Shown here piece after piece: positions 26,165-54,392 of a DNA stretch of 64,000 nt. The position numbers and the translations under genes are program-made. Every line of letters starts with the position of its first letter. Position 1 is the first letter of the stretch. Below the pieces are notes generated by a model. It was not told where the DNA came from. It ran no database searches and worked only from the letters and a program-made list of their open reading frames with translations. Source of the stretch: Lachnospiraceae bacterium. GTDB lineage: Bacteria; Bacillota; Clostridia; Lachnospirales; Lachnospiraceae. The stretch spans positions 1 through 64,000 of the forward strand of contig SVFL01000014.1 in NCBI GenBank assembly GCA_015056885.1. Reading direction: 5' to 3'.

Positions 26165-26190
26165 AACCCACTTTTCTCCTTCATCTTGCA

Positions 26191-27597: not shown

Positions 27598-27644
27598 AAG
27601 CACCACCCGGTATCTTTCCCAAAAAGCTCTAATCCCATGGTGTA

Positions 27645-27839: not shown

Positions 27840-27849
27840 ATTATACTTT

Positions 27850-28158
27850 TTATTTGGACCAGATGATGGTATCATCCTCCAAGGAAATCATCATCGGCGC
27901 TGTATCCGGTGAAATCTCCAATATCGCATTGTACGGATAAGACAAAGAACCTGTATTCTGAATTGTCTTCTTTACACGAAACGCACAAGCGTAAAACTCT
28001 CGATACATGGAAGTTCCTTCCCGCTTGCCATTATCTGTTTCATAAATAGTCTCTATTATACCACCCAGCACCAGACCCTCGTGAGGCCACACCAGCTTAA
28101 TATATGTACCATTGGGGTACTGGCTCAAGGCCAGGAGCATATCACTTATATCATTCAT
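27850..28158 (-). CDS. Hypothetical protein (102 aa)
   Basis: I do not recognise this protein. It is small, soluble and looks beta-rich (GTYIKLVWPHEGLVLGGI and ACAFRVKKTIQN). The start at 28158 is chosen because AGGAGG lies 11 nt upstream and a longer frame would overlap the previous gene heavily. It follows the 174-aa membrane-anchored gene by 16 nt. The two probably work together. No motif ties it to sugar chemistry. Confidence 0.65.
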   Translation of the reverse strand: MNDISDMLLALSQYPNGTYIKLVWPHEGLVLGGIIETIYETDNGKREGTSMYREFYACAFRVKKTIQNTGSLSYPYNAILEISPDTAPMMISLEDDTIIWSK

Positions 28159-28174
28159 TTTTGCAAGCACCTCC

Positions 28175-28699: not shown

Positions 28700-28761
28700 T
28701 ACAACACCTCCCCATGTATATTATGCCTAATTATTTCGTCAATTGCAATTGGTAAATATTA

Positions 28762-29739
28762 TTAATTTTTAGCAATAAATTTTAACAAATTGACATATAG
28801 TTGCCATTGTATGTTGAAATAATGAGACAAATTATTAAATTCAAAACGAACTTTTCGTCCACGACCTTCCTCGGATAAACAGCGCTTCCATCCTGTTTGT
28901 AATCCCTGAAGATACGTTCTGCCCATTCCTTTTCGCACAAAAAACAACCATTTTACAAAAAAACCCAGTAGCAAGCATGGTAAATTCCAAAGAATTTGAA
29001 GAATTGGCATGTTTTTATATATAACGTATAGATTATTTGCAGAAGACAATTTTGTCTTAAATTCATTGTATCTGGAACCGGTAGATGCACTCCCGTAATG
29101 AAGAACCTCCGCCTGAGGCTCATAAATATTGCAATAGCCGTGAATTTGCGCACGATACCCTAGATCCAAATCCTCCAAATAGGCGAAATGAAGTTCATCA
29201 AAGAGGCCAATCTGCTCTAAAATGCTCCGTCTGTAAATAACCGCTCCGCCACAGGAAGAAAAAATTCGGGAAGGTTTATTGTATTTAGAAGCCGAACGAC
29301 CTTTGCCCCTTGCAAAAGCCCACCCTAATACATTGTACAAATCCCCTGCCCCATCCATCAAGTCCGGACGGTCCCACATCAACATACGCGCACTGACCGA
29401 AAAAATTTTTGAATCCTTTTCAATGGCTCTGTAGAGATGTTTTACAAAGGTCGATTTCACCTTTGTATCATTGTTGAGTAATATAATATATGGAGTATCC
29501 GACTCCTGTATGCCAACATTTACGGCATGGCAAAAACCGGTATTGGTTGCAAGACGTATAATCTGCGTCTGTGGAAAAAGTTCTTGCGCCTGCTCTATGC
29601 TACCATCCTTCGATGCATTATCTACAATCAACACATGATATTCCGGTGTTCCTTCCTCCTGTGAATAGAGTGATTCCAGACAGGTTTTCAGGTATTTTAT
29701 TCCGTTATAATTCGGGATAACAACTGTTATTTTAGCCAT
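28762..29739 (-). CDS. GT2 family glycosyltransferase
   Basis: The 325-residue enzyme carries VVIPNYNGIKYL at the start, the donor-site Asp in IVDNASKDGS, and a canonical NNDT (LLNNDTKV) at the metal site near residue 93. YLEDLDLGYRAQIHGY is the typical catalytic-base region of rhamnosyltransferase-like GT2 members. A hydrophobic stretch near residue 250 may attach it to the membrane. GGAGGG precedes the ATG, and the start overlaps the end of the upstream GT2 gene by 8 nt. It is likely to add one residue of the chain on the cytoplasmic side. Confidence 0.9.
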   Translation of the reverse strand: MAKITVVIPNYNGIKYLKTCLESLYSQEEGTPEYHVLIVDNASKDGSIEQAQELFPQTQIIRLATNTGFCHAVNVGIQESDTPYIILLNNDTKVKSTFVKHLYRAIEKDSKIFSVSARMLMWDRPDLMDGAGDLYNVLGWAFARGKGRSASKYNKPSRIFSSCGGAVIYRRSILEQIGLFDELHFAYLEDLDLGYRAQIHGYCNIYEPQAEVLHYGSASTGSRYNEFKTKLSSANNLYVIYKNMPILQILWNLPCLLLGFFVKWLFFVRKGMGRTYLQGLQTGWKRCLSEEGRGRKVRFEFNNLSHYFNIQWQLYVNLLKFIAKN

Positions 29740-31111
29740 TGTCCCTCCTATACCACTGCAGACGATATCCCCGTCTGCGAATTTCTTTACTTAATTTGAT
29801 ACTTAGCTCCTTATAATTGGTTCCCTCCGGCAAAGTACTTACATCAAAAATCTGTGTACCGGGAATTCTGCGATAAGTAACGCCTGTTATTTCTTTAAAC
29901 AAACCCCTAAGTTCCTCTCTCACTACCATGGAACGAATATCTATCGCCTCTGCACTCTGAGTGAGAACCGCACGATGAAGATAACCGCTAAAATGCTTGG
30001 ACAGTCCTTTATAATACACATTTCCCTCCTCATCCATACGTCCGGATACAATCTTACCCTTCTTGGTGAGTGCACTGCCTATAGCACCTATATCTTTTCT
30101 GGCCGCAAACACATCTTCGGAGTACTCCACCTGATAGAATCCCACATGCTTGAGATGTACTGCCTTACCGGGAATGTTATTGCGGTCAATATAGCTCTGT
30201 AAAGCACGCCTGCCTGCCTCATAGGCATATTCCTTGCTACGGGGATTTTCTGCCGTGGAGGAGGCATGACAACGCCAATGGTACAGAATCTTAGGCACAT
30301 GTGCGATGGCCATCTCCTTAGCCGGATTGGTCGGAATCCCCAATTCTGTCACTGCCCGAAGTACCAGGTCATAATCCTGAGCTCCGTCATATTCCGGACG
30401 GAATCCAAGTTTCTGCATCAATTCCCGCCTCATCACCATAAAATGACAGATGTAATTATTACTTAAAATCAAATCGTAATTAAGCTTTTCCTTGTAATGG
30501 GGCTCATAATACTCTGTAGCCTCGCCATTGCATTTATCCTCATCAGAATAAATCAGTTGAAGCTCCTGCCCCTGCTCCCTTGCCTGTCTGATTGTTTCAG
30601 CCATCTCAAACAGAGCATCCGGAGTCAATATATCATCATGGTCCAAAAGACCAATATAGTTCATCTTTGCATAGGGAAGTGCAGCGTTGGTGTTGGCAGA
30701 AATTCCGTCATTAGATGACAAGTGCACATAGCGGATTGCCGGATTTGCCTCATAATCCTTTACAATCTCCCACACACTGTCATCCTCAGTGGCATCCGCC
30801 AGAATCACTTCCCAATAGGGATAGGTCTGAGCCTGCAGGCTTTCAATTAACTCCTTCAAAAATACAGGCTTGGTACGGTATAAAGGCACCACAATGCTAA
30901 AATCAATGCCTTCATGAGTACCGTTTTCTGCCCCCTGCGCCACAACCTGACGCTGTCTTGCAAGCTCCTCCGCTGAAGGAACCACATAGCTATAGGGAGC
31001 CTCCTTGGCCTGCGCAAGACGCTCTTTCGCCGCATACCATGTGTTTTTCAGACCGTTGCGCTGAAAATAATATATAGTTTTTTTGATATTTGCTGAATTC
31101 AGCGCTCCCAT
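29732..31111 (-). CDS. GT2 family glycosyltransferase with extended C-terminus
   Basis: The 459-residue protein has an N-terminal helical region (1-65), a GT2 domain (about 70-300) with FSIVVPLYRTKP, LLDHDDILTPDAL (the DxD-type site), and YDGAQDYDLVLRA. The C-terminal 150 residues look like a reduced second GT domain that has lost its nucleotide-binding half. The paired two-domain GT2 at 35732 shows the full version. It overlaps the following GT2 gene by 8 nt and follows a 267-aa unknown gene by 2 nt. Confidence 0.88.
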   Translation of the reverse strand: MGALNSANIKKTIYYFQRNGLKNTWYAAKERLAQAKEAPYSYVVPSAEELARQRQVVAQGAENGTHEGIDFSIVVPLYRTKPVFLKELIESLQAQTYPYWEVILADATEDDSVWEIVKDYEANPAIRYVHLSSNDGISANTNAALPYAKMNYIGLLDHDDILTPDALFEMAETIRQAREQGQELQLIYSDEDKCNGEATEYYEPHYKEKLNYDLILSNNYICHFMVMRRELMQKLGFRPEYDGAQDYDLVLRAVTELGIPTNPAKEMAIAHVPKILYHWRCHASSTAENPRSKEYAYEAGRRALQSYIDRNNIPGKAVHLKHVGFYQVEYSEDVFAARKDIGAIGSALTKKGKIVSGRMDEEGNVYYKGLSKHFSGYLHRAVLTQSAEAIDIRSMVVREELRGLFKEITGVTYRRIPGTQIFDVSTLPEGTNYKELSIKLSKEIRRRGYRLQWYRRDNG

Positions 31112-35731: not shown

Positions 35732-37798
35732 CTATTCTTTCCCCTGTCCATTCACATTTAAGGAAAAATCACTTCTGTCCAGTGAAAAATTCGGATTGTA
35801 GTAAGGATCTCCTGCCTCCAGAACTGCCTTCCACTTCTCACGGAATTTCTCAGATTCCTTATTGTAGCGCTCCGCCTTCTCTCCATTATCATCCAGGCCT
35901 CTGGACACAGACTCATGATGGAACAGCTCCGCAAAAGGAGTGAACACATTCAATAGTCCCTTTTCTCTGAGCTTCAAGCACAAATCCACATCATTTAAGG
36001 AGATGGCAAAGCCTTCTTCCAATCCGCCCACAGCATCAAACAGGCTCTTTTTCACCATAAGACAGGCACCGGTTACAGCACTGACATTCTGGGCATAGCA
36101 GAGACGTCCCATGTAGCCCAGATTCTGTCTTGACTGCTTGTAATGTGTATGGCCTGCTGTGCGATGCGCACCCAGACCAATCACCACACCGGCATGCTGA
36201 ATGGTACGATCCCCATAGTAAAGCTTGGCTCCCACAGCACCCACGTCCTCACGCTGGGCGTACATCAGAAGCTCCTCCATCCAGTTGACGGTGATAACCT
36301 CTGTGTCATTGTTTAATAGCAAAATATAGTCGCCGGAAGCATGCTTTACCCCCAGATTATTCACCGCGGAATAGTTAAACGCTCCCTTGAATCGCACCAC
36401 AGAAATCTTTCCATCGGGGCTTGTGCAGACGTCAACTCCTGTCTTTGCACTATATTCGCACTCCAACAGCTCCCCATAATACTTGAAAATATCATCTGTC
36501 TCGCTGTTGTTCTCCACAATAATAATCTCATAATTATCGTAAGTAGACTTCTCTCGAATAGAAGTCACGCAACGGCGCAAATCCTCCACATGATCCTTGT
36601 TGGGAATGACAATACTGATTTTTGGCGTACCGATAATCTCGTATCGGATGCGGAAAATCGTCTCAAAAGCACGTGTTCCCGAAATTTGGAAATGGTCGTA
36701 TCCATGACCACGCAGGTGCTCTGCCACAGCCCCCTTGGCTGCTGCAATAGCATAAGGCTTGGCATCAATACCGGAAGCCACACTACCTGCATGGGAACGC
36801 CAATAATACATCAGCTTGGGCACATGTACAATACACTTTGCATTGTCCGTCAGGCGCAAAATCATATCATGGTCCTGGCTGCCGTCAAACTTGGTGCGGA
36901 ACAGTTCTCCCCCATCCAAAAGGCTTCTGGCAAACACACTGAAATGGCAGATATAATTGTTGGCACGCAGATTGTCCGGTGCATAATCCGGTTTAAAATG
37001 CATGGTCAGCATCTTGTTGATGTCCGTACCCTTAAAGGTGGTTTCATCACAGTAAATATAGTCTGCGCCCTTCTCATTGATGGCCTTTACATACTCATAT
37101 AAAACGGAAGGATGCAAAATATCATCCTGGTCAAAAAGTCCGATATATTCACCTGTTGCAAGTTCCAGGCAGGCATTGGTATTGCCGGAAATACCCATGT
37201 TTTTCTCGAGCTTTTTGTACACAATACGACCACCGGACTTCTCCACATATTCCTTGCAGATTTCGCCCATGTAGGCATGCTCATCATCGGAACCGTCCGC
37301 CAGACAAAGCTCCCAATTCTGATACGTCTGATTCATCACAGACTCCAGCATCTCAATTTGGAACTCACGCTTATTATTCCAAAGAGGCACCAGAATGCTG
37401 ATTTTCACCATACGGGGAAAAACCGTCTCCCGTTCAAGCTTTGCTCTCTCCTCATCGGGAAAGCTGTCCGTGCCATAGCTTTTCATCACGGCACGCTCTC
37501 GTTTTTTATAGTCCAACTTGTGAAAAATTCCACGGATTCCACCGCAGTTGCGCACACGGTCAAGCTGTCTGATAAACCAATGCATCACATTACGCAAAGG
37601 CTTTGACATTTTCCACAAGGGGTTATTCTTGATACGGTTCAACTTCCATGTCAGTTCCTCATTGGCAGATTCCAAATCCGCAATGCGTCCTGCCAGTTCC
37701 GCACACTTTAAATGCTCTCTTTGGTACTCCTCCTGCCAGGAAATTCCGGCATTTGAATTCAAATCTGCATTTGTATCTACATTCACTTTATCTGTCAT
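35732..37798 (-). CDS. Two-domain GT2 glycosyltransferase
   Basis: The 688-residue protein starts with a coiled coil (about residues 20-60), then a first GT2 domain (about 130-370) with ISILVPLWNNK, LFDQDDILHPSVLYEY and FDGSQDHDMILRL, and a second GT2 domain (about 390-640) with ISIVIPNKDHV, LLNNDTEVI and LNDVDLCLKLREKG. Each domain has its own metal-site Asp motif, so both may be active and add two linkages. It overlaps the next upstream gene by 4 nt (ATGA), which implies coupling. It is the last gene before the terminator. Confidence 0.92.
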   Translation of the reverse strand: MTDKVNVDTNADLNSNAGISWQEEYQREHLKCAELAGRIADLESANEELTWKLNRIKNNPLWKMSKPLRNVMHWFIRQLDRVRNCGGIRGIFHKLDYKKRERAVMKSYGTDSFPDEERAKLERETVFPRMVKISILVPLWNNKREFQIEMLESVMNQTYQNWELCLADGSDDEHAYMGEICKEYVEKSGGRIVYKKLEKNMGISGNTNACLELATGEYIGLFDQDDILHPSVLYEYVKAINEKGADYIYCDETTFKGTDINKMLTMHFKPDYAPDNLRANNYICHFSVFARSLLDGGELFRTKFDGSQDHDMILRLTDNAKCIVHVPKLMYYWRSHAGSVASGIDAKPYAIAAAKGAVAEHLRGHGYDHFQISGTRAFETIFRIRYEIIGTPKISIVIPNKDHVEDLRRCVTSIREKSTYDNYEIIIVENNSETDDIFKYYGELLECEYSAKTGVDVCTSPDGKISVVRFKGAFNYSAVNNLGVKHASGDYILLLNNDTEVITVNWMEELLMYAQREDVGAVGAKLYYGDRTIQHAGVVIGLGAHRTAGHTHYKQSRQNLGYMGRLCYAQNVSAVTGACLMVKKSLFDAVGGLEEGFAISLNDVDLCLKLREKGLLNVFTPFAELFHHESVSRGLDDNGEKAERYNKESEKFREKWKAVLEAGDPYYNPNFSLDRSDFSLNVNGQGKE

Positions 37799-39768
37799 AC
37801 TTCCACCATCCGATTACTCCAATTAATTATTCCCGCGCCGTTTACACGGTTTTGGGCCATCATACCCAGCCGGTAACTTCCGACAGGCAGTACGCCCTCC
37901 TCCCATTCCAGGCAGAATCCGCAAAGTCCCACATTGGTCTGGTCCGGCATATTTTCTATCAAATCCGGGCGGTATTGCCCTTCCAATTCAATACTATAAC
38001 ATTTTCCCTCTTTTGAGCAAAGCAACAATCTCTTTAAATAACATGCGTTATTATCTCCTAAAACCACGCTCCATCCGGTCAGAACGTTACTGTTTTCTTC
38101 ATTCAAAACAGATTCCACGCGCACCATAAGGCAGGCATCCTCCCTACACTTATCCGGCAACTTTCCTTCTGTCAACTCAATACTTTGAAGCATTTCCGGC
38201 GTCAATGATTGCGCCGTATTTTTACCGTTCTCATGCACCGGACGAATCCGCGTATCCAGACCATCACGATTCAAATAGGTAGAATAGTAAGGGTCCCTAC
38301 CCTCAAGCCCGGGATGTCTGGCATATAGTTTGGCACGCTCCGCCAGAAGTCTTGCAAGTTTCTCCGAAGCCTCATCATCTCCGCGACTGTAAGACTCGTC
38401 ATGATAGGCATACAGATCACATTCACAGACATTTTCATAACCCAGTTCATATAAGCCGAAACACAAATCCACATCGTTAAAAGCTACCGCAAGCTCTTCT
38501 GCAAAGCCTCCTGCCTCAGTAAATTTGCACTTTTCCACCATAAGACATGCCGCAGTCACCGCAAGCATATTATGTCTACCGCGACTACGCCCCATATAAT
38601 ATTTACCATCGTCCGGACAAAACTGTAGCTTGTGCACCGGTCCCATGGGCAGATTGGTAATTCCTACATGCTGAATCCGCTTGCTTTCGCCTTCTTTACC
38701 GGGGTATAAAAGCTTTAATCCTACCCCGCCGGTAAAGGGTCGGACTGCCAAAGCAGCCATCTTTTCTAAAGTTTCCGGACAGGCAAGCGTTACATCATCA
38801 TTCAAAAAAAGCAAAAGCTCCCCGGAAGATTTTTTCACACCCAGATTGCACATTTTCGAAAAATTAAAATCCTGTGCATCATAATGGTACAAAATACGCT
38901 TAAGACCGTTGCTTCCTGCCTGACGGAATCGATGAAGCACCGCTTCAATCTGACGCCGATTATCCGGTGCTGAACCGTTATCCACAACAATAATTTCAAA
39001 TTTCAGTGGAATACTCGCTACTTTCTGCTCTGACTGCTCTATTGGGGAAAGAGTCATTGCACACTGCAAAATACTTCCAATACACTTCTCTAAAAGCTCC
39101 GAATTATCCTTAGAAGGAATAATAATCGACAACAACATGCCCGCCGGAGTTTCCCCCTCCTTATGCATGTCCGCCCCATATTCCATCCATTCATTCATTG
39201 CCGCTTCACTCTCATTGTGAAACAAAATCCTTGGAATGTGCAGAATATGTTTTCTTCCATCGCCCTTCTCATAGCCTCCGGCAAGCTTAACCGCCTCCCT
39301 CACAAGCAGCTGACATTCCTCCTTGGAACACATACCGCAATCCGCAAGCTCCCACTTTTTAATAATCTCTGCATCCTGTTCCATTAGCCAACTCTTACGG
39401 ACTGCCACAACTCCACCCGGATAAAATTTATCATCCAACAAATCCGGCGACCAGTCCGGCTTAAAATAAGGCGCAGTTCTCTCTTTACCCGTGGCCCGGA
39501 TATCCTCGTCTCCATAGAGCAAAACTGCCTCCGGATACTTGGCAAACCACTCTCCAAGCCACTCTTTTGCCTTTACGGACAACATTCCCTTAGGATTGTA
39601 AACAAGTCGAAAACTGTCCTCATCGCAGACATTTGAAGGCAAAGCTATCCCTGCCTCCTCACCGGTAATCCAAGCATGATAGGAACAAAGTCTACTACTC
39701 AGTTCCTTTTCGTAACGTATGTTATTTTTGTTGATAAGTGCTGATTTTACGAGCTGTTTTAAACCCAT
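37795..39768 (-). CDS. GT2 glycosyltransferase with degenerate first domain and C-terminal beta domain
   Basis: The 657-residue protein resembles the two-domain GT2 downstream, but its first domain is reduced. The region with YGDEDIRATG and FKPDWSPDLL remains while the nucleotide-binding start is missing. The second domain (about residues 210-500) is complete, with LLSIIIPSKDNS, LLFLNDDVTLA and FNDVDLCFGLYELGY. The last 125 residues form an extra beta-rich region that may bind glycan. So one catalytic site is expected. It follows the methyltransferase-kinase gene by 40 nt. Confidence 0.88.
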   Translation of the reverse strand: MGLKQLVKSALINKNNIRYEKELSSRLCSYHAWITGEEAGIALPSNVCDEDSFRLVYNPKGMLSVKAKEWLGEWFAKYPEAVLLYGDEDIRATGKERTAPYFKPDWSPDLLDDKFYPGGVVAVRKSWLMEQDAEIIKKWELADCGMCSKEECQLLVREAVKLAGGYEKGDGRKHILHIPRILFHNESEAAMNEWMEYGADMHKEGETPAGMLLSIIIPSKDNSELLEKCIGSILQCAMTLSPIEQSEQKVASIPLKFEIIVVDNGSAPDNRRQIEAVLHRFRQAGSNGLKRILYHYDAQDFNFSKMCNLGVKKSSGELLLFLNDDVTLACPETLEKMAALAVRPFTGGVGLKLLYPGKEGESKRIQHVGITNLPMGPVHKLQFCPDDGKYYMGRSRGRHNMLAVTAACLMVEKCKFTEAGGFAEELAVAFNDVDLCFGLYELGYENVCECDLYAYHDESYSRGDDEASEKLARLLAERAKLYARHPGLEGRDPYYSTYLNRDGLDTRIRPVHENGKNTAQSLTPEMLQSIELTEGKLPDKCREDACLMVRVESVLNEENSNVLTGWSVVLGDNNACYLKRLLLCSKEGKCYSIELEGQYRPDLIENMPDQTNVGLCGFCLEWEEGVLPVGSYRLGMMAQNRVNGAGIINWSNRMVEV

Positions 39769-39808: not shown

Positions 39809-41887
39809 CTAGATCAATTTCTTCACTGCTCCTGCCATATCCTGTGCCATGGAAAGGGGAAGTCTCACCACTTCCATGCGTGTATACAAAGTGTTTTCTG
39901 CTTTTCTTTCAAGCAACTGCAAATCAATATTTATATTCGGATCTGTGGTGGGGAACACAATACTGGGCTGATACATATCCCCGGTAGTTTTTTCAGGCCT
40001 ACAGATTCTACCGTTTACCAAGAGAACCTTTCTTTTCTCCAAAGGAACCCTCTCTCCGTTAAAGGTCATCTCCAGAATCTTCACCATACAGGAATCAAAG
40101 GCTGGGTCGATACGCAGAATATGCACATTGCCATCCACTGCAAGCTCCATCTCAATCAGCTGCTCACCCTGATAAGCATCCTTCACAAAATAAGACTCCT
40201 CTTCCTTGCAGCCCTCACCCTTGTCCTCATAAATCTGGACACGATTTACCGACTCCGAATCCTGATATCGGTCAATCCACTTTTGTGGTACCATACAGCG
40301 ATAACCAATATTATCACGCATCTGCGCCATAGACATGCGGTTTCCGGTGACAAATTTCTGAAAATCCATCTCCTGTTCCCGGAAATTCTCTGCATCCTTT
40401 TCCGTAATCTCAAGCTCGCTCAATATCAAATCGAGATTTAACTTATTTCTTTTTTCATCCTCTAACAGATAACAATAAATAGCTCTGAATGCCAATTCCT
40501 TGGTATCAATAGGCTTACCAAAGGTCCACTCATAGTCAATCAGAGTCCAAGTATCTCCATCCACCAGAATATTAGAGAAAATCAAGTCAAAATCTGCCAC
40601 TTCGTAACTTGCATTATAGCCGATTCGCTCCACATACTCTTTAAAATATTTGTGAAAACCATCCAAATCTTCCTCATCCAGACACTTATCCATAAGCTCA
40701 GACAAAGGAATTCCTTCCACAAACTCAAACTCTGCATACAGCAAACCTTCCTCTTCCACGAGAGTACAACGGTTAATCTCCAGATTACCGCCCTCATACT
40801 TCGACACGAGCTGTTCATAGGCATATCCCATGCCTCGCACATGATCTGCTGCCGCCTCTGTCAACGGATACTTCCGAACAAAAGCTTTTCCCTCTGCATC
40901 CTTACCGATTTCCGTACGAATAGCATACTCTGAAGCTCTGTCATTGGAATACTTGGCATATTTTACATCAAAACCTGCTCCCAGCACTGCCACATAAGAA
41001 TTGGCAAACACAGAAAACAAATCCTCCTCTATTACACCGTCAAAAGCTGCTTTTTCTGAAAACAAAAGCATTCTGTCCCGGTCAAAATTGCGCAGATTAT
41101 TGGTCAATTCCCCTTTGCCGGGCTGATAATCGTCGCTGTAAACAGTAGTCATGAACTTATAATCCGGATATGGATAATAAAAATGATACTCAGATACACC
41201 GCATTCTTTGAAAATCTTTTCCAATCCGCCACGACCAAAGGTTCTTACGCCGCCACCGGCCTCATAATTCTCTATTCCGGAGAAATAAGTCCCTAAATGG
41301 TCCTCCTTACAACCGGCAAAATACTTCATTCCGTATTTATTCTCAATGGCAATAATAATTCTGCCGCCCTTTTTCAAATGAGGCATCAGAATCTGCAGAA
41401 AATCCACATAGGGTGTACTACCGCCAATATAACTCTTGCCGTACTCAAATACACCTATAAGACAAATATAGTCATAGTCATTGGGCAAATCAGGCTCAAT
41501 ATCCTTAAAATTGCCCACATGAATGGTTACATTATCGCACTCCGCATGACGATACGCATTAATCATGCTGCGCTTCTTGGATAAATCCACACAAGTCACA
41601 CTGCCGGCCTTTCTGGACAATGCTCCGGTAATGGCTCCACATCCACTGCCTACCTCCAGCACCTTGGCATCCTTATCCATAGGTATCCATTCCACAATAT
41701 TCTCTCTAAGAGGCGACAGATGATACAAAACAGGCCAGCTTGCACGTCTCTCTATCTCTCCTGCATACTCCACCGGAGACATATCCCGCACAATCTGTAA
41801 AATTTCATCCTCAACCGCGCCATCGCAATAAAAGTCTTCCCCCGGATACTTACTGTAATCCAGTGTTACTTTTCCGATTTTCTCCAT
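39809..41887 (-). CDS. WbdD-like methyltransferase-kinase, candidate chain terminator
   Basis: The 692-residue protein fuses a SAM methyltransferase (motif I LEVGSGCG at 77-84) to a protein-kinase-like domain (about 310-480). The kinase part keeps a candidate ATP lysine (FVRKY, K339), a catalytic loop DLIFSN (D434, N439) and a metal Asp in LIDYEW (D451). A beta-rich region of about 190 residues follows. This order matches E. coli WbdD, which phosphorylates and methylates the end of a growing polysaccharide and so sets its length. The coiled-coil ruler of WbdD is not evident. It lies directly after a Wzt-type ATPase with a glycan-binding domain, the known partner type. The ATG at 41887 is preferred because GAGG precedes it. 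The role is inferred from architecture and context. Confidence 0.72.
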   Translation of the reverse strand: MEKIGKVTLDYSKYPGEDFYCDGAVEDEILQIVRDMSPVEYAGEIERRASWPVLYHLSPLRENIVEWIPMDKDAKVLEVGSGCGAITGALSRKAGSVTCVDLSKKRSMINAYRHAECDNVTIHVGNFKDIEPDLPNDYDYICLIGVFEYGKSYIGGSTPYVDFLQILMPHLKKGGRIIIAIENKYGMKYFAGCKEDHLGTYFSGIENYEAGGGVRTFGRGGLEKIFKECGVSEYHFYYPYPDYKFMTTVYSDDYQPGKGELTNNLRNFDRDRMLLFSEKAAFDGVIEEDLFSVFANSYVAVLGAGFDVKYAKYSNDRASEYAIRTEIGKDAEGKAFVRKYPLTEAAADHVRGMGYAYEQLVSKYEGGNLEINRCTLVEEEGLLYAEFEFVEGIPLSELMDKCLDEEDLDGFHKYFKEYVERIGYNASYEVADFDLIFSNILVDGDTWTLIDYEWTFGKPIDTKELAFRAIYCYLLEDEKRNKLNLDLILSELEITEKDAENFREQEMDFQKFVTGNRMSMAQMRDNIGYRCMVPQKWIDRYQDSESVNRVQIYEDKGEGCKEEESYFVKDAYQGEQLIEMELAVDGNVHILRIDPAFDSCMVKILEMTFNGERVPLEKRKVLLVNGRICRPEKTTGDMYQPSIVFPTTDPNINIDLQLLERKAENTLYTRMEVVRLPLSMAQDMAGAVKKLI

Positions 41888-41898
41888 ACCCATCCTCA

Positions 41899-43164
41899 CT
41901 AATTATCCGTCACTTTTACAACGGAATCCATATCATAATATCCCACGGTATTTTTGTCTGACACTACCGTAACATTTAACGCATCATACAACCTGTGGTA
42001 TACCTCAAAAACATCACCATTATAACCGGTCACACCAAAGGACAGCAGATACTCTCCACCCTGAAGACTCATCTTCTGAGTAAAGGTTATATTCTTCACC
42101 TGTCCGGGCTTTGCCGGCTCCAAAAATGCCTTCTCAATCATGGAGTTGGTGCCGGTTATCTCCGTTCCGTGCACATTTTTCACGGAAAAAGCAAATATAG
42201 GTGCAGGTATTGCATCTGTAAACCGCACCTTCATGTGCACGGTAAACTCTGCCCCCTTAATGACCGCCGTAGTGCGCACATCATTGTCATCTGTAATATA
42301 GTATTCCACAATTTCAGCCTGTTTGGTTCCATACTCCAAAGCCTTGGGATTCAGCCCTTCCGCTGCGGCGCGAATCTGGGAATCCTCCACCAGATTCTCA
42401 TCGCTCTCCTCGGGAAGTTCGTACTGTCCTACCAACACACGCTTGTAGGCATCAATCATCTCCTTGGGACTTCCTTCTCCCAAAAGATTACCCTTATTCA
42501 ACAGATACACTCTGTCACAATACTTGCTGATACTGCTCAAATCATGACTTACAAAAATAATGGTCTTACCCATCTCCTTAAACTCTTCAAACTTGTGATA
42601 GCATTTTGCCTGGAAGAATACATCACCCACAGACAATGCCTCATCCACAATCAGAATCTCCGGTTCAATATTGATTGCCACCGCAAATGCAAGACGCACA
42701 AACATTCCGCTGGAATAGGTCTTTGCAGGCTGATATACATAATCACCAATGTCCGCAAATTCCAGAATCGCCGGCAATTTTTCATCAATTTCTTTCTCTG
42801 AAAAGCCCATCATGGTACCATTCAGATACACATTTTCAATACCATTGTATTCCATGTTAAAGCCCGCTCCCAGCTCCAAAAGTGCTGAGATACGACCATC
42901 CACAACAACCTCTCCCTCCGTGGGATTTAAGACGCCGGTAATAATCTTCAAAATCGTAGACTTACCGGAGCCATTGGTACCGATTATACCAACCGTCTCT
43001 CCCCGGCGGATATCCATGCTCACACCATTTAATGCATAATGCACTTTATGAGATTTCTTACCGAATCCCAACGCCTCCTTCACACGATCCTGTGGCTTAT
43101 CATACAATTTATATATTTTGCGGACATCCTTCACCGCAATCGCAATATCATTCTGCTTCGTCAT
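41899..43164 (-). CDS. wzt: Polysaccharide ABC exporter ATPase with Wzt C-terminal domain
   Basis: The 421-residue ATPase powers polysaccharide export with the Wzm-type permease. Walker A is GTNGSGKST (62-70), the signature is YSSGMFVRLA (150-159) and Walker B ends IVDEALSVGD. The C-terminal 140 residues (about 280-421) form the beta-sandwich domain that in E. coli O8/O9a Wzt recognises the capped non-reducing end. Most Gram-positive TagH proteins lack this domain, so its presence points to cap-dependent export. It ends in TAG, 11 nt before the methyltransferase-kinase start. Confidence 0.92.
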   Translation of the reverse strand: MTKQNDIAIAVKDVRKIYKLYDKPQDRVKEALGFGKKSHKVHYALNGVSMDIRRGETVGIIGTNGSGKSTILKIITGVLNPTEGEVVVDGRISALLELGAGFNMEYNGIENVYLNGTMMGFSEKEIDEKLPAILEFADIGDYVYQPAKTYSSGMFVRLAFAVAINIEPEILIVDEALSVGDVFFQAKCYHKFEEFKEMGKTIIFVSHDLSSISKYCDRVYLLNKGNLLGEGSPKEMIDAYKRVLVGQYELPEESDENLVEDSQIRAAAEGLNPKALEYGTKQAEIVEYYITDDNDVRTTAVIKGAEFTVHMKVRFTDAIPAPIFAFSVKNVHGTEITGTNSMIEKAFLEPAKPGQVKNITFTQKMSLQGGEYLLSFGVTGYNGDVFEVYHRLYDALNVTVVSDKNTVGYYDMDSVVKVTDN

Positions 43165-43184: not shown

Positions 43185-44663
43185 TTATTCCTCCACACAG
43201 ATGACCTCATCCTTGTCATACCACATAGCCAGAGCCATGTTTGACTCATCTGCCGGATTATCACTCAAATCTCCTATACACAAAAACCATGGCCGCCATT
43301 TGTAAGGCTTAAGAACTACCGGCTCTGCATCGGATTTTAACACTTCCACCCTGGCCAGATATTCCTGATAAAAGTTATACGCCTCTCCGGTATGTACATA
43401 ATAATATGCCCCATATGGCGAAAAACTTCCCGCCTGATTAGGCTCTGTTTCAAAAGCAAAAACAGCCGCCAATCCCAGCAGCAGATAAACCCACCATCTG
43501 CACATACGCCTCTGTATCCCTTCCGTATGCCTTGCAATCCAACCACACCAGTATATCAAATTAAGTATTAAAAGCAACTGCCAGGTAAGCTTTACTGCAT
43601 TTAATGACCTGTCCAGCCCTGCATGGCCCAAGGAATACAGGCTCGGTGTAAATCCCGTTGCATAAAGGCAAACAGACCACAAAGTAATCAGTCCCGGAAA
43701 CCGGAAAGCGAAATCCACGCTCTTAACCATATGCATAATCATAGGTATCATCAGTACCAACAAAATCAAAGTCATCCATCCGGTAAACTCCCATGCATGT
43801 CCCAATGCTTCCTTAAAGGAATTCAACACAGACTCTATTGGCGACATTCCCCATCCTACAAAGCTTTTGGCTCGCTTGTCATTACCGGGAGCCGTCACAT
43901 TCAGAACAAAGCCCCCCACATATGCAGCCAACGCAGGCAATAGAAAAAAAGCCTGCCTTCTCCGCACCCAAAATCCTAACATAACAATACTCAAAATCAC
44001 CAATAATCCCTGTAGAGTAGTAACCAGATTACCACCTGCCGTAACAAATGCCAAAAGCGCTGTCACAAGTGCCAAAACATATCTTCTCGCGCCACTCTCC
44101 GCAGTAAGGACCTGCACAGCAACCAGAATAAGTAACATACAAAATCCATGCATACCCACATAATGAACACCGCCGTTATACCAATAAAAACCCTCCTGAG
44201 CAGTATGAATCATCACAACAGCCAGTATAGCACTCACCGCCGAGATTCCCAGCGCATGCTGCCAATCTGTTTTCAACACACTCTTTAACAGAGTATACAC
44301 CAGCATCCCCACTGTCACTGTCATAAACAAAATTAAAAAAATGGGGCCCAAACAATAATACTCTTCTCCCCAGACTCCGGGCATTAATGTCATAAAAAAA
44401 ATAGAGCTATAAGTTCCCTGCCACGCATGCCACGAAATTCGTATACATTCCCAAGTTCCTTTCAACGCACTTCCCCAACCCGGTTGCTGTTCCATGGCAG
44501 TCAGCGCAAAACGGCCGTAAACATAGTCATCATAATAGGGAACTGAGTACTCCGCCAGACGCAGTAGCGGAACAAGCAAGACTGTCAACAACAACACCGC
44601 CCCACAGGAATACTGAACCGGTGTCGGTCGCCAGCCTACAATTTGCTTTATTTTATCTTTCAT
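43185..44663 (-). CDS. Polytopic membrane protein (DUF6056-like, possible GT-C)
   Basis: The 492-residue protein has about eleven membrane segments. Shortly after the first helix it has VPYYDDYVYGRFAL, an acidic loop like the catalytic loop of GT-C glycosyltransferases, and later FYWYNGGVHYVGMH and TAPGNDKRAKS. These fit a DUF6056-type family as I recall it, unverified here. The last 90 residues are soluble. It sits between wzm and wzt with gaps of 11 and 20 nt, so it is surely part of the export operon and may modify the polymer outside the cell. Confidence 0.75.
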   Translation of the reverse strand: MKDKIKQIVGWRPTPVQYSCGAVLLLTVLLVPLLRLAEYSVPYYDDYVYGRFALTAMEQQPGWGSALKGTWECIRISWHAWQGTYSSIFFMTLMPGVWGEEYYCLGPIFLILFMTVTVGMLVYTLLKSVLKTDWQHALGISAVSAILAVVMIHTAQEGFYWYNGGVHYVGMHGFCMLLILVAVQVLTAESGARRYVLALVTALLAFVTAGGNLVTTLQGLLVILSIVMLGFWVRRRQAFFLLPALAAYVGGFVLNVTAPGNDKRAKSFVGWGMSPIESVLNSFKEALGHAWEFTGWMTLILLVLMIPMIMHMVKSVDFAFRFPGLITLWSVCLYATGFTPSLYSLGHAGLDRSLNAVKLTWQLLLILNLIYWCGWIARHTEGIQRRMCRWWVYLLLGLAAVFAFETEPNQAGSFSPYGAYYYVHTGEAYNFYQEYLARVEVLKSDAEPVVLKPYKWRPWFLCIGDLSDNPADESNMALAMWYDKDEVICVEE

Positions 44664-44674
44664 AGTTCTTTTCC

Positions 44675-45511
44675 TTACAATACATCTGCAAAGTGCACCT
44701 TTAAGCGCTTAAAAATAAGAGCTCCAATTCCAAAAAACACCAACGTCACTATCCAGAAGTAAATGGTCGAATACATATCCTCAAAAAACCACCGTTGCTC
44801 GTAAACAGCACTCCTATAACCATTTACGATATATACCAACGGATTCAATTTTAAAACAGCAACGAAACGGCTGTCTGCAAGCGTATTGATATCCCACAGA
44901 ATTGGTGTTGCCCACATACCGATTTGCAGCGCAATGTTGATAATCTGCGCCAAATCCTTAAAGAAGACCACCACCGCACAGGTCGTATAACACAATGCCA
45001 ATACAAAGACAAAAAGGCATGCGCTGTAATACACCAACTGAATCGTATAGATGCTCGGATAATATCCGTAAATTGCAGCCACCACCAATAACACCAACAC
45101 AAAAAACACATGAATAAACGTGGCTGCAATTATTTTAATAATAGGCAGAATACTGATTTTGAAAACAACTTTCTTAACCAGATAATCATACTCCCGCAAC
45201 GCATTTGTACCGTGATTTAGAGCTTCACTAAAGAAAAACCAAGGCACCAGCCCTGCTGTCAGGAACAATACAAAAGGCACCTCCGCCGCTGTCCGGCTGG
45301 CATTTCCGCCCATGATGACATCAAATACAATATAATACATACCGACAGTCACCACTGGCTGTGCCATTGCCCAAAAAGCACCCAGATAGGAACCCACATA
45401 ACGCTTTTTAAAATCATTTTTGGCAAGCTTCCAAATCAAATGTCTGCTCTGCCAAAGTTCCAACAGAAGCACCGGAAATAAAGTGATCCCGGCCTTTTTA
45501 CTGTTATTCAT
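44675..45511 (-). CDS. wzm: Polysaccharide ABC exporter permease
   Basis: The 278-residue ABC-2 type permease has six predicted membrane helices and the typical N-terminal amphipathic start followed by DFKKRYVGSYLGAFWAMAQP. The LVPWFFFSEALNHGTNALREY segment is characteristic of Wzm/TagG. With the Wzt ATPase two genes downstream it forms the exporter that moves the lipid-linked polymer across the membrane. It starts 13 nt after rmlC. Confidence 0.92.
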   Translation of the reverse strand: MNNSKKAGITLFPVLLLELWQSRHLIWKLAKNDFKKRYVGSYLGAFWAMAQPVVTVGMYYIVFDVIMGGNASRTAAEVPFVLFLTAGLVPWFFFSEALNHGTNALREYDYLVKKVVFKISILPIIKIIAATFIHVFFVLVLLVVAAIYGYYPSIYTIQLVYYSACLFVFVLALCYTTCAVVVFFKDLAQIINIALQIGMWATPILWDINTLADSRFVAVLKLNPLVYIVNGYRSAVYEQRWFFEDMYSTIYFWIVTLVFFGIGALIFKRLKVHFADVL

Positions 45512-45524: not shown

Positions 45525-46082
45525 TCACTTGTTTTCCAGATATTCCTTCAAACCGCCCCATTTGGTATCCTTCTCAGATAAAAGAAGTTGCATGTCCGGA
45601 GCAATAGGCCATTCCACACCGATTTCAGGATCGTCATAACGAAGTCCGCCCTCATCCCCGGGATGATAATAATCGGAGCACTTATAGCAGAACTCTGCAT
45701 AGTCGGACAACACCAGAAATCCATGAGCAAAGTTCTTGGGAATAAAGAACTGTTTCTTGTTCTCCTCAGACAAAAGCACACCAAACCACTTACCAAATGT
45801 AGGAGAACCCTCTCTCAAATCCACTGCCACATCAAATACTTCACCCTTGATAACACGCACCAGCTTGTCCTGAGGAAATTCCTTCTGAAAATGCAACCCT
45901 CTCAATACGCCTCTTGAAGATGCAGACTGATTATCCTGTACAAATACCTCAGGAATGCCGGCTGCCTTATAATCCTCATACTGATAGGTCTCCATAAAAT
46001 ACCCTCTGGCATCGCCGAACACCTTTGGGGTAATAATTTTTAATCCTTCAATTTCACATGTCTCTACTGTTATCTGTCCCAT
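45525..46082 (-). CDS. rmlC: dTDP-4-dehydrorhamnose 3,5-epimerase
   Basis: RmlC converts dTDP-4-keto-6-deoxyglucose to dTDP-4-keto-rhamnose, the third step to dTDP-rhamnose. The 185-residue cupin has the catalytic His in RGLHFQ, the Lys in LVRVIKGEVFDVAVDLR, and FAHGFLVLSD. The start at 46082 is supported by AAAGGA 6 nt upstream. It is separated from rmlA and rmlB by a GH25 gene. Confidence 0.95.
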   Translation of the reverse strand: MGQITVETCEIEGLKIITPKVFGDARGYFMETYQYEDYKAAGIPEVFVQDNQSASSRGVLRGLHFQKEFPQDKLVRVIKGEVFDVAVDLREGSPTFGKWFGVLLSEENKKQFFIPKNFAHGFLVLSDYAEFCYKCSDYYHPGDEGGLRYDDPEIGVEWPIAPDMQLLLSEKDTKWGGLKEYLENK

Positions 46083-46131
46083 TTTTATCCTTTCCAAGTC
46101 CTAATATCTGCAACTTCACAGTCCTACAGAC

Positions 46132-47409
46132 TTACTCATACATAATATTCATATCTACATTGCCCTCAATACCATCAATCCGGCCCTTGGAGCTATATTG
46201 CCACATGCGATAGTACCCCTGATACAACGGTACACTGCGGTATTCTGCAAGCCAGATATAATAATTCTCCAGTTTTTCCACATGAAGATTATTATTGTAC
46301 CAGTTACGACTGGCGTACACACCAGCCTCATATCCTGCATTTTCAATCGTACGGCAAAAAGCCTCACAGACCAAAGTTCTGGTATCTGCGTCCAACTTGT
46401 CCGCCCGTCCGTTTCCGCCGGCACCTTCCGTATCAATAAAAATAGGATAGGCAATCTCATATTCCTGCACCCAGCGAAGCACTGCAGAAGCCTCTTCCAC
46501 TGCTTCCACCTCGTTGGTTGCCTGGGTAAAGAAATACACACCCACAGGAATGCCGGATTTGGCTGCACCCTTCATATTCGTATCAAAATAAATATCCTGC
46601 ACAAGGCTTCCGGTAACAGAACCACGATATCCTGCACGAATAATGGCAAATTCCACTCCGGCATTCTTGACTTTGTCCCAATCAATATCCTTGTTCCACT
46701 TTGAAACATCAATACCAGCCTTTGTCTTGCCCGAAAAGGACTTTAAATCCGTCATCTCCGTAGCATCTGCATCTGCCAGCGCATCGCGCACGCCGCTATC
46801 CTCGGCCTTGGCATCCACCTCATCCTCTGTTTTGATTAACAGAGAAATATCGTCGATTGCCAAATATTCAACTTTATCTTTGACCTTTACACGTGTAGTG
46901 CCTGTCGGCACTCTATAGCCTTCAACAGACTTAAGTGTTACTGCATACTCACCGGCAGTCAGGTCACCGATATAAATAATTCCATCTTTGTCCAAATCTT
47001 TGTACGTGCCTTCTGCATCCGAGTTCTGCATCTTGTCAAGCTCCACAAAAAAGCTTTCACCCTCTACCAACAGGCCCTCATTATTCACAATCTGAATACG
47101 CAAATCTTTCTCCACGGAAGTCACCACAAGGGATAATCGATTCGTCATGTCCTTAGCGGCCTCCAGCACCTGATTACGTTCCGGATCAAAAAAACTGTCA
47201 TCCTGTTCAAATGCCTTCAAATCAAACATTCCCCAATAGTCTCCTGCAGACAGCTGTTGTTCTGATTGTACGGACTCTTGCTCTTCATACGTCTGTGACA
47301 CAACAGGACGCTTATCCGTATCCTGATTGGTCCAAAACACCGCTAAAGATACCACCAGAATCGCAGCCAAACTGGACAAAATGGCTGTTCTTCTCAATTT
47401 AGAGTCCAT
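46132..47409 (-). CDS. Membrane-anchored GH25 muramidase, small form
   Basis: The 425-residue protein has an N-terminal membrane anchor (about residues 8-26), an extracellular beta-rich region (about 85-200) and a C-terminal GH25 lysozyme-type domain (about 230-425) with [14 protein letters not shown], the IRAGYRG strand and the catalytic IFIDTEG. GH25 enzymes cut the glycan backbone of peptidoglycan. The middle region ([15 protein letters not shown]) is similar to one in the large GH25 protein at 51324, so the two are paralogues. The start overlaps the rmlA stop by 11 nt, so it is translated with the dTDP-sugar genes and may open the wall at sites of polymer attachment. Confidence 0.9.
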
Positions 47410-48268
47410 TTGCTACCTCTACCAGATACTGACCGTAATTGGTCTTCATCAAAGGTTCTGCAAGGGCAAGAAGCTGCTCCTTGTCAATAAAACCTTTCTT
47501 GTATGCAATCTCCTCAATACAGGAAATGTAAAGCCCCTGTCTCTTCTGGAACGCTGCCACAAAATCTGCCGCATCCAACAATGCATCGTGGTTCCCTGTA
47601 TCAAGCCATGCGAAACCACGTCCAAGCTGTTCCACCATCAAGGTGCCACGCTCAAGATACTCGTTATTGACACTGGTAATCTCGATTTCGCCACGGGCAG
47701 AAGGTTTTACATTTTTTGCAATCTCTACTACATCATTGTCGTAAAAATACAAGCCCGGTACCGCAAAATTAGATTTAGGATTCTCAGGTTTTTCCTCAAT
47801 GGAAAGAGCCTTACCGTTCTCATCAAACTCTACTACACCATACTCTCTGGGATCTCTTACATAGTAACCGAAAATGGTCGCACCCTTCTCTCTGGAAGCC
47901 GCCTCAGCCAAAACCTTGGAGAAGCTTCTGCCGTAGAAAATATTATCTCCCAGCACAAGAGCAACTCTGTCCTTACCGATGAATTCCTCTCCGATAATAA
48001 ACGCATCCGCAAGACCTCTGGGGCTCTCCTGCACTGCATAAGAAAGCTCCATTCCCAACTGATGTCCGTCTCCCAAAAGCTCTTTAAACACAGGCAAATC
48101 TCTGGGTGTGGAAATGATTAACACCTCTCTGATTCCCGCAAGCATCAGTGTAGACAAGGGATAATAAATCATGGGCTTGTCGTACACCGGCATAATCTGT
48201 TTTGAAATAGCCTTGGTCAAAGGATACAATCTTGTTCCTGAACCACCTGCCAAAATAATACCTTTCAT
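47399..48268 (-). CDS. rmlA: Glucose-1-phosphate thymidylyltransferase
   Basis: RmlA joins glucose-1-phosphate and dTTP to dTDP-glucose. The 289-residue product has the nucleotide-binding loop [13 protein letters not shown] at the start, [20 protein letters not shown] and EKPENPKS. The start at 48268 has GGAGGAG upstream. It follows rmlB after an 83-nt gap that contains a hairpin and overlaps the GH25 gene by 11 nt. Confidence 0.96.
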
Positions 48269-48313
48269 CTGTTTCTCCTCCACATTAAAAACTCATATTT
48301 ATAAAAGCAAAGA

Positions 48314-48351: not shown

Positions 48352-49437
48352 TTATCTGTTGCTGTACATATCTTCATAATACTTCTGATAGTCGCCGTTG
48401 GTTACATTTTTCATCCAGTCTTCATGCTCAAAGAACCATGCAATGGTCTTCTTAATACCTTCCTTGAACATGGTCTCCGGCTCCCAGCCAATCTCCGCCT
48501 TAATCTTGTCCGGAGCAATGGCATATCTGCGGTCATGACCCTTACGGTCCTCCACATAAGTAATCAGCTCCTCATTTACAAGAGCCTTTCGGGGGTCACC
48601 CTCAGGGAGCATCTCCTGCAAAGTATCCAGAATAATATGCAGAATCTCAATATTCTGTTTCTCGTTATGTCCGCCGATATTGTAGGTTTCGAACAGTCTT
48701 CCCTGCTCCTGAACCATATCAATTGCCTTGGCATGGTCCTCAACAAACAGCCAGTCACGGACATTCTTACCGTCACCGTACACCGGAAGCTTCTTACCCT
48801 GCAATGCATTGTTAATCATCAGCGGAATAAACTTCTCAGGGAACTGGTAAGGTCCGTAGTTATTAGAACAGTTTGTAATGTTCGCAGGGAACTTGTAAGT
48901 ATCCATATAAGCCTTCACCAACATATCAGAGCTTGCCTTACTTGCTGAATAAGGGCTGTGAGGATCATAGGGTGAAGTCTCATAGAAAAATGCGTTCTCA
49001 TCTTCCGGAAGACTTCCGTACACTTCATCGGTGGATACGTGAAGGAACTTCTTACCCTCCTTAAAGCTTCCGTCCGGAAGCTCCCATGCTGCCTTCGCAC
49101 AATTAAGCATTACCGCTGTGCCCAGTACATTGGTCTGTACAAAAACCTCAGGATTCTTAATACTTCTGTCTACATGGCTCTCTGCTGCAAAATGCACCAC
49201 TCTGTCGATGTCATTCTCTGCAAAAATCTTGCTGATAGCCTCTTTGTCACAGATATCCGCTTTTACAAAAGTATAATTATCGCGGTTTTCCACATCCTTT
49301 AAATTCTCCAAATTACCCGCATACGTAAGCACATCCACATTGATAATACGAATGTCGTTATCATACTTCTTAAACATGTAATGAATGTAGTTGGAGCCGA
49401 TAAACCCAGCTCCTCCTGTCACCAGATAAGTTCTCAT
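48352..49437 (-). CDS. rmlB: dTDP-glucose 4,6-dehydratase
   Basis: RmlB makes dTDP-4-keto-6-deoxyglucose, the branch point to dTDP-rhamnose and dTDP-4-amino sugars. The 361-residue short-chain dehydrogenase fold has the NAD loop GGAGFIGSNY, the STDEVYG motif and the YSASKAS catalytic motif. It starts 21 nt after the diguanylate cyclase stop. Both RmlC and the aminotransferase at 62153 can use its product. Confidence 0.96.
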   Translation of the reverse strand: MRTYLVTGGAGFIGSNYIHYMFKKYDNDIRIINVDVLTYAGNLENLKDVENRDNYTFVKADICDKEAISKIFAENDIDRVVHFAAESHVDRSIKNPEVFVQTNVLGTAVMLNCAKAAWELPDGSFKEGKKFLHVSTDEVYGSLPEDENAFFYETSPYDPHSPYSASKASSDMLVKAYMDTYKFPANITNCSNNYGPYQFPEKFIPLMINNALQGKKLPVYGDGKNVRDWLFVEDHAKAIDMVQEQGRLFETYNIGGHNEKQNIEILHIILDTLQEMLPEGDPRKALVNEELITYVEDRKGHDRRYAIAPDKIKAEIGWEPETMFKEGIKKTIAWFFEHEDWMKNVTNGDYQKYYEDMYSNR

Positions 49438-54356: not shown

Positions 54357-54392
54357 TTTTCTTCCTATTCTCCTCAAAATATATTCCGTAAT

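Follow-up and report, generated by a model that had tools for sequence, protein, structure and literature searches.

We identified, in a stretch of 64,000 nucleotides of DNA from a gut Gram-positive of the Lachnospiraceae (hereafter the window), a gene for a methyltransferase-kinase-beta-domain protein, MK, that is likely to be a chain terminator whose cap is read by the adjacent exporter component Wzt. MK probably adds phosphate and methyl to the end of a surface polysaccharide that contains rhamnose, which would let the exporter recognise finished chains. Homology and gene order give good support, as far as sequence can tell, to this functional class of an end-capping terminator that Wzt reads, and we infer the cap, terminal sugar, wall attachment and length control of the predicted polymer. 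Among characterised enzymes, its closest counterpart is probably ORF6 of K. pneumoniae O7, in its N-terminal half (PMC11231755), and we regard MK as a probable O7-type terminator on the grounds of its domains, its conserved catalytic residues, its homology to the O7-type architecture and the conserved Wzm-Wzt-MK order.

The MK protein

The MK gene (39809..41887; all window genes described here are on the minus strand) starts at an ATG at 41887, 11 nt past the end of Wzt, and encodes 692 aa, the same length as a database copy (P0001). A GTG at 41899 is also possible, giving an ORF (39809-41899) of 696 aa, and residue numbers are counted from that GTG. The protein comprises a methyltransferase (residues ~1-310), a kinase (~310-530/539) and, in the predicted model, a beta-rich third domain (~554-679); the model has no long C-terminal helix, i.e., no C-terminal coiled coil.

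The methyltransferase had Pfam matches (best 2.6e-7). An LE(V/I)G(S/A)GCGA motif is present in 78 of 80 sampled loci, the remaining two reading LDLGSGCGA. Its profile resembles phosphoethanolamine methyltransferases (E 5.7e-6, and also by Foldseek), with other methyltransferases scoring alike. Searched against PDB sequences, MK matched entries of methyltransferase type and, at E 0.4, a maltokinase.

In the kinase part, residues 310-539 had no Pfam kinase match at an E limit of 10, a search in which HMMER filters drop most matches above 0.1. Nevertheless, the kinase profile scored 55.6 over 32 columns against APH (best of 40 shuffles 15.7) and 56.0 over 121 columns against Pkinase (best of 40 shuffles 21.4), and a PDB search with the MK profile found methyltransferases and the kinase GCN2, at 0.017 (within this part of MK) and 0.062. 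Residues K343, D436, D438, N443 and D455 are invariant across 38 aligned sequences (the window and 37 of the 80 loci). Motif scans found a DxDxxFxN-type motif and DYEW each in 79/80 loci, the exception to both being L073, whose ORF ends early. Related genes elsewhere encode the methyltransferase and the kinase separately, which shows that such a fusion can form independently. A stand-alone kinase gave nothing useful as a PDB query, and its protein search found 11 proteins, the query itself among them, with no Pfam domain in any.

The MK locus and its distribution

Upstream of MK are genes for an ABC exporter and for rhamnose precursor enzymes. Wzt (41899..43164) has an ABC ATPase (ABC_tran 2.1e-22) and a C-terminal Wzt_C carbohydrate-binding domain at residues 276-412 (3.1e-39). 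The ABC permease Wzm (44675..45511) had no match in the Pfam search, but was recognised by a below-cut-off match to galactan_ABC_perm (1.2e-14) and by matches to three Gram-negative Wzm proteins. Between them is a membrane protein (43185..44663) with a weak, below-cut-off DUF6056 match (4.4e-4), which is present in 31 of the 80 loci. Next come rmlC (45525..46097; Pfam 3.2e-73), rmlA (47399..48283; NTP_transferase 4.2e-77, 64% to an rfbA-annotated gene in locus L183) and rmlB (48352..49437; GDP_Man_Dehyd 1.1e-92, 50% to an L183 gene annotated dTDP-glucose 4,6-dehydratase), with rmlD found on a different contig of the same genome.

Downstream of MK are the glycosyltransferases GT657 (37795..39768), with a single GT2 domain, and GT688 (35732..37798), with a heptad-like short segment, an NPLWKMSKPLR motif and two GT2 domains. 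Two further GT2 glycosyltransferases (28762..29739 and 29732..31111) belong to the same cluster, as do a WcaJ-type undecaprenyl-phosphate glucose-1-phosphate transferase (26191..27606; TIGR03023, 511 bits versus a cut-off of 410.75) and an LCP (LytR-CpsA-Psr) ligase (25040..26191; PF03816, 5.1e-34), whose genes overlap by one base. LpxC had no match in the genome. A GH25 with choline-binding repeats is also encoded near the MK locus. The initial annotation had described a methyltransferase-kinase fusion with conserved kinase residues, separated by 11 nt from a preceding Wzt that has a C-terminal domain, together with an LCP ligase and a WcaJ-like primer, and all of these elements were borne out by our analyses. 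Absent from it were the beta-rich third domain and the downstream glycosyltransferases, which point to the family of MK.

Of 25 genomes sampled from the genus, 24 have a match to MK below 1e-100, in one case over residues 5-228 only, and the gene set also occurs in many other Lachnospiraceae. Acetatifactor muris DSM 23669 carries it as well (L053). Of the 80 genome loci sampled, 73 bear the name Lachnospiraceae, or that of a genus within it, in their titles. In 78 of the 80, Wzt is upstream of MK on the same strand, the contigs of the other two ending there, and in 69 it is within 300 nt. Three of nine phylum loci (L116, L117 and L120) have the methyltransferase but lack such a Wzt in the stretch read. 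LCP was present in 9/80 loci, or 8/50 of those with 9.5 kb downstream, a count based on flanks of up to 10 kb per locus, whereas the LCP of the window is 13.6 kb from MK.

The gene order extends beyond this group, as Wzm-Wzt-terminator is also the order on P. asturiensis and C. braakii plasmids, where both Wzt proteins carry Wzt_C. The C-terminal part of the window Wzt matches the Wzt of P. asturiensis (7e-17), E. coli HS (2e-9) and C. braakii (2e-7). Such domains are described in ABC transporters whose glycans are capped or terminated (PMC6379404, PMC11127046).

Homology to O7-type terminators

The N-terminal half of ORF6-O7 is reported to place methyl phosphate on O3 of a terminal rhamnose, with orthologues named in alpha- and gammaproteobacteria, cyanobacteria and the archaeon Methanoculleus (PMC11231755). 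Our link to it runs through a homologue, a 1457-aa fusion of P. asturiensis (Pseudomonas plasmid), and through the residue numbers printed for ORF6-O7. MK residues 24-599 match this fusion at E 1.3e-43, with identities of 33% in the methyltransferase, 22% in the kinase and 18% in the beta domain. The fusion has all six of the printed SAM-site residues at their printed numbers (Y28, Y66, G91, G93, E112 and Y158; PMC11231755), to which Y24, Y59, G84, G86, D105 and Y153 of MK align, so that MK has the same letter at five of six, D105 replacing E112. In addition, D438 of MK aligns to D443 of P. asturiensis, close to the printed catalytic D441. The kinase alone matched the P. asturiensis protein only at E 9e-5 and that of C. 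braakii at 1.9. In the alignment, neither K343 nor D436 is conserved in the two Gram-negative relatives, and C. braakii has Glu in place of D455.

As described (PMC11231755), ORF6-O7 shares with MK the order of a methyltransferase and a kinase without recognisable kinase sequence, followed in ORF6-O7 by an Ig-like CBM to which the predicted beta-rich domain of MK may correspond. Also common to both are rhamnose in the polymer, which is predicted here, and two GT2 polymerase modules, both of which are here in the separate gene GT688. That paper also associates terminated glycans with a CBM-bearing Wzt, and the window Wzt has Wzt_C. Judged by its sequence, GT688 corresponds to the polymerase portion of the fusion in P. 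asturiensis (37%, E 4e-109 to its GT2-GT2 half). The two systems differ in that terminator and polymerase are fused in ORF6-O7 and separate here, and in that LCP and WcaJ are part of our cluster, in a genome without an LpxC match. MK and GT688 form a single 1366-aa ORF in L070, and a distant Bacillota locus, L184, has an MK and GT688-type fusion of 1555 aa. Known terminators are described as carrying their own coiled-coil ruler (PMC11231755), whereas the MK model has no coiled coil; a heptad-like segment stands at the start of GT688, the protein fused to MK in L070. A crude heptad score did not separate coils from other helices.

Comparison with WbdD

The initial annotation had called MK WbdD-like, and the likeness to WbdD of E. 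coli O9a and K. pneumoniae O3 (PMC3482155) holds for its architecture, a methyltransferase followed by a kinase and adjoining a Wzt with a C-terminal domain, rather than for its family. The four top Foldseek matches of the MK model among 350,542 chains were all WbdD (4azt, 4azs, 4ax8 and 4azw; E 9e-11 to 1.4e-9, 474-542 columns), and 4azt also ranked first with an earlier, weaker model. The comparison of predicted structures that had been proposed as a check therefore places WbdD first over both domains, but with a TM-score to target of 0.27 and an rmsd of 15.6-19.1. We attribute this ranking to the order of methyltransferase then kinase that is common to both proteins.

That MK is a true WbdD orthologue, moved into Gram-positives by transfer, is scarcely credible. 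The structure search alone would support it, the operon position next to Wzt is alike and the kinase profiles are distantly related (34.2; best of 60 shuffles 19.7), but BLASTP gave no match (best E 1.6), whole-protein profiles aligned in the methyltransferase core only, and the kinase is nearer to APH and Pkinase than to WbdD, which itself scores 109 to Pkinase. In addition, E152-Y153 of MK occupy the place of H132-H133 (HisHis) of WbdD, which belong to its H132/H133/R203 phosphate-methyltransferase site, the model lacks the C-terminal coiled coil, and such fusions can, as noted, arise independently. WbdD orthology was dropped after the BLASTP, profile and kinase comparisons. WbdD was also absent up to E 0.1 from the PDB search with the MK profile; two lists of the 50 best PDB matches were filled by the methyltransferase domain, and the absence of WbdD or a kinase fold there excludes nothing.

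Alternative caps and targets

Other readings of the exact cap and of wall attachment overlap with that of a terminator read by Wzt. It is quite unlikely that MK leaves two separate marks, a methyl on a sugar hydroxyl and a phosphate elsewhere, in place of methyl phosphate. There is a Gram-positive precedent for an O-methyl cap, placed on the Geobacillus rhamnan by WsaE (PMC2943079), and the HisHis site tied to phosphate methylation in WbdD (PMC3482155) is Glu-Tyr in MK. However, the P. asturiensis and C. braakii relatives also have Glu-Tyr at that position, and since methyl phosphate is the reported product of the O7 enzyme (PMC11231755), HisHis is probably not required. We consider it very unlikely that MK, instead of ending the chain, acts on side groups or internal repeats, adding for instance a phospho-base decoration. 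The resemblance to phosphoethanolamine methyltransferases and the nearby choline-binding-repeat GH25 would fit this, but the O7 homology of MK and the linkage to a Wzt with a C-terminal domain in 78/80 loci fit an end cap. Phosphocholine decoration was rejected as both LicD matches of the genome are in another locus (contig C124). A glycan that is capped as proposed, but transferred to protein or released, is unlikely to a lesser degree, given that in Geobacillus the glycan is delivered to an S-layer protein (PMC2943079) and that the LCP role in the cluster is putative; the one-base overlap of LCP with WcaJ argues for the wall.

Proposed mechanism and significance

If MK is a terminator read by Wzt, synthesis of the glycan would begin with WcaJ on undecaprenyl phosphate, and GT688, GT657 and the other GT2 enzymes would extend the chain. 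The MK kinase domain would phosphorylate the non-reducing end, probably rhamnose, so that growth stops, and the methyltransferase would then methylate the phosphate, as proposed by analogy with the O7 enzyme. Binding of the cap by the C-terminal domain of Wzt would allow Wzm/Wzt to export finished chains, which the LCP enzyme may attach to the wall.

The initial annotation knew of no such combination in this group, which was too strong a statement, as Gram-positives already offer an example of a rhamnan that is capped and exported by an ABC transporter: the S-layer rhamnan of Geobacillus stearothermophilus receives a 2-O-methyl cap from WsaE, and Wzm/Wzt were predicted to export the chain once capped (PMC2943079). 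By description, that system resembles the one proposed here in its Gram-positive host, rhamnan, wzm-wzt-terminator order and end cap, and in WsaE joining a methyltransferase to two rhamnosyltransferase domains. It differs in its 2-O-methyl cap, with no kinase reported in that description, and in that the glycan goes to S-layer protein (PMC2943079). What is new is a kinase-bearing terminator beside LCP and WcaJ genes in an LpxC-less genome; our literature search, judged mostly by titles and abstract openings, found no Gram-positive methyltransferase-kinase terminator among the matches listed.

Tentatively, gut Lachnospiraceae may possess a polysaccharide that contains rhamnose and is linked to peptidoglycan, with chains that are measured, end in methyl phosphate and are exported only when capped; the ruler would have shifted to the polymerase, away from the terminator. 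If true, this would represent O-antigen-type quality control in a Gram-positive without LPS, and the polymerase-terminator-export scheme of O7 type, which has been studied for the O antigens of Gram-negatives, would extend to Lachnospiraceae. The MK locus provides a named gene for testing what limits and completes the surface glycan of these bacteria.

Domain Structure of the Wzt-Associated Methyltransferase-Kinase Protein

The genes for Wzt (421 residues) and a methyltransferase-kinase-beta-domain protein, hereafter MK (696 residues from a GTG), together occupy positions 39809–43164 of the minus strand; an alternative MK start, an ATG at 41887 on the same strand, gives 692 residues. The 11-nt gap between the genes noted in the initial annotation was confirmed, counting from that ATG, as was the C-terminal glycan-binding domain of Wzt (Pfam ABC_tran plus Wzt_C, 3.1e-39), and both LCP and WcaJ-type genes are present in the cluster, as it had stated. 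MK has methyltransferase matches in Pfam (best 2.6e-7), and the Pfam search gave no match to a kinase family. The conserved kinase residues previously claimed are nevertheless present, with K343, D436, D438, N443 and D455 (numbered from the GTG) invariant across 38 sequences. An MK kinase profile built by aligning 86 related stretches was compared with APH and Pkinase alignments built from relatives (30 loci each, 24 and 27 readable, 19 and 26 sequences used), scoring 55.6 over 32 columns with APH and 56.0 over 121 columns with Pkinase, against 15.7 and 21.4 for the best of 40 column shuffles. The catalytic DxxxxN and next Asp are in register in these comparisons, and the profile evidence supports a predicted kinase in the middle of MK, albeit one without a Pfam match. 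The AlphaFold model from 38 sequences (mean pLDDT 87.2, versus 71.6 in an earlier run with 40 less diverse rows) has a beta-rich C-terminal domain with no coiled coil.

Comparison with WbdD and the O7-Type Terminator

The earlier description of MK as "WbdD-like" was examined using a gene from the E. coli HS O9 locus (order wzm, wzt, methyltransferase, wbdA), annotated as a class I methyltransferase, which we take to be WbdD from its position and 708 residues. MK had no BLASTP match to this protein, and between the MK profile (38 rows) and WbdD relatives (30/121 rows) the methyltransferase core alone aligned. The two kinase profiles scored 34.2 (best of 60 shuffles, 19.7), lower than MK scored with either APH or Pkinase. 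In favor of the description, four WbdD entries were the top Foldseek matches of the MK model (E 9e-11 to 1.4e-9, 474–542 columns), ahead of lone methyltransferases, which ranked from 1e-8. Those matches, however, had TM-scores to the target of 0.27–0.29 and rmsd >15 Å, indicating that the domains are arranged differently or that the match is domain by domain. In addition, a HisHis site reported as essential in WbdD (PMC3482155) is Glu-Tyr in MK. The likeness to WbdD stands as a structural ranking; the missing BLASTP match, the more distant kinase and the different residues at the HisHis site, together with the beta-rich C-terminus, led us to reject MK as WbdD itself.

A more likely counterpart is ORF6-O7, the K. 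pneumoniae O7 terminator-polymerase, in which PMC11231755 reports a methyltransferase, a kinase and an Ig-like CBM, then a coiled coil leading to two GT2 modules. Its kinase is described there as a 223-residue domain without recognisable kinase sequence, inactive as D441A and different from that of WbdD, and the enzyme as placing methyl phosphate on O3 of a terminal rhamnose, with partial methylation in vitro. We made the comparison through a P. asturiensis homolog and the printed residue numbers. MK and the GT2 glycosyltransferase GT688 (35732–37798, minus strand) form a single 1366-residue ORF in one of 80 loci (L070), and in tblastn this fusion matched 427 plasmid records, one of which covered 80%; among the matches listed, those after the first were to the glycosyltransferase half alone. 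That record encodes a 1457-residue P. asturiensis protein annotated merely as a glycosyltransferase, which is matched by MK residues 24–599 (E 1.3e-43) and, in its C-terminal half, by GT688 (37%, E 4e-109). At the aligned SAM-site columns it has Y28, Y66, G91, G93, E112 and Y158, which agree in residue and numbering with those published for ORF6-O7; its catalytic Asp is D443 versus the published D441. A single ORF of this type (1555 residues) also occurs in a distant Bacillota locus (L184). Since MK and GT688 match the halves of the P. asturiensis fusion and are fused elsewhere, the pair reads, from sequence, like an O7-type terminator-polymerase split between two genes.

MK alone matched two plasmid records. 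A Citrobacter braakii plasmid carries rml genes, Wzm, Wzt and a 649-residue MK relative (E 9e-36) in the order seen in the window, followed by glycosyltransferases with no match to GT688; Wzt_C is present in the Wzt of both this and the P. asturiensis plasmid. The O-antigen-like C. braakii locus lies on a plasmid (pF217-3) typed as conjugative.

Gene Order and Distribution

A scan of genome contigs yielded at least 523 MK relatives among at least 597 stretches, and the best 80 loci were compared with the window's proteins by tblastn. The usual order is rmlB, rmlA, GH25, rmlC, wzm, (membrane protein), wzt, MK, GT657, GT688 and, where the stretch is long enough, phosphomutase, GT459, GT325, wcaJ and LCP (GT numbers denote GT2 glycosyltransferase genes), with exceptions such as GT688 preceding MK in L092, L096 and L107. 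Wzt, matched by its C-terminal domain, lies upstream of MK in the same orientation in 78 of the 80 loci, the other two contigs having <150 bases there, and lies ≤300 nt from the MK match in 69. Where ≥4.2 kb of sequence follows MK (63 loci), GT688 is present downstream in 59. Two genes of the GH25 lysozyme type are interspersed with the glycan genes, at 46132–47409 and, with choline-binding repeats, at 51324–54377; a GH25 gene separates rmlA and rmlC in 58 of the 65 loci showing both. The membrane protein between Wzm and Wzt (43185–44663, weak DUF6056 match) occurs in 31 of the 80 loci, and a 1155-nt interval between GT325 and WcaJ (27607–28761) contains ORFs of 136–192 residues.

Most of these loci (73/80) are titled Lachnospiraceae or belong to Acetatifactor, Roseburia, Blautia or Lachnoclostridium, genera we placed in that family for the count, with the isolate Acetatifactor muris DSM 23669 and one complete genome (GAM79) among them. 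Of the 25 genomes examined from the window's genus, 24 match MK at <1e-100, one of these at residues 5–228 only, and the exception is 70% complete. Outside the family but within the order, the best match in 16 genomes was 4.2e-5. Twelve of 398 phylum genomes, including that of the window, match at 1e-40 or better, near full length only in the latter and G142; a single methyltransferase-kinase ORF was also found in G210 and G149 by closer comparison and in G383 by profile. Three congeners (G406, G422, G426) have extra 568–590-residue frames, 40–41% identical to the MK methyltransferase and otherwise unmatched, that are perhaps other terminators. In one metagenome-assembled genome (L073, 9992–11023) the MK frame stops early.

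Variant forms appeared among nine phylum loci that were read (L113–L121). Methyltransferase and kinase genes are adjacent but separate in L114, L115 and L117, the pair directly following Wzt in L115 and two genes after it in L114; the L117 stretch showed no Wzt of this type, and the L117 kinase matches, with full identity across 97% of its length, a protein named from Selenomonas sp. F0473. In L118 a protein with a weak APH-type match (E 0.0049, below the cut-off) comes straight after consecutive Wzm, Wzt and methyltransferase genes. Wzm, Wzt and an MK relative follow one another in L113, L119 (with one intervening gene) and L121, and L116 and L120 have a methyltransferase with no such Wzt in the stretch.

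Proposed Mechanism and Precedent

The rmlA, rmlB and rmlC genes in the cluster, with rmlD elsewhere, point to dTDP-rhamnose, and WcaJ suggests priming with glucose-1-phosphate. By homology, MK would phosphorylate and then methylate the non-reducing chain end, Wzt_C would read this cap, and LCP may ligate the chain. Any length ruler might, as a guess with the L070 fusion as its only support, be the heptad-like segment with which GT688 begins. No LpxC match was found in the window's genome (86% complete). Another contig of that genome (C124, ~9857–63318) has two LicD matches, several sugar-nucleotide dehydratase-like matches and a 795-residue frame weakly similar to MK residues 166–338, and is perhaps a second glycan locus.

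The initial annotation was not aware of such a combination having been described in this group, but a capped, ABC-exported rhamnan is already known in a Gram-positive, Geobacillus. There, as reported in PMC2943079, the wzm, wzt and wsaE genes overlap; WsaE, a methyltransferase joined to two rhamnosyltransferase domains, caps the chain with a 2-O-methyl group, and the capped chain is the predicted ligand of Wzt. Nor is Wzt_C rare in the phylum, being over the cut-off in 20 of 199 genomes. A literature search, mostly of titles and abstract openings, found no published description of a kinase-bearing terminator in a Gram-positive; as far as that literature extends, it is this type of terminator that is new.
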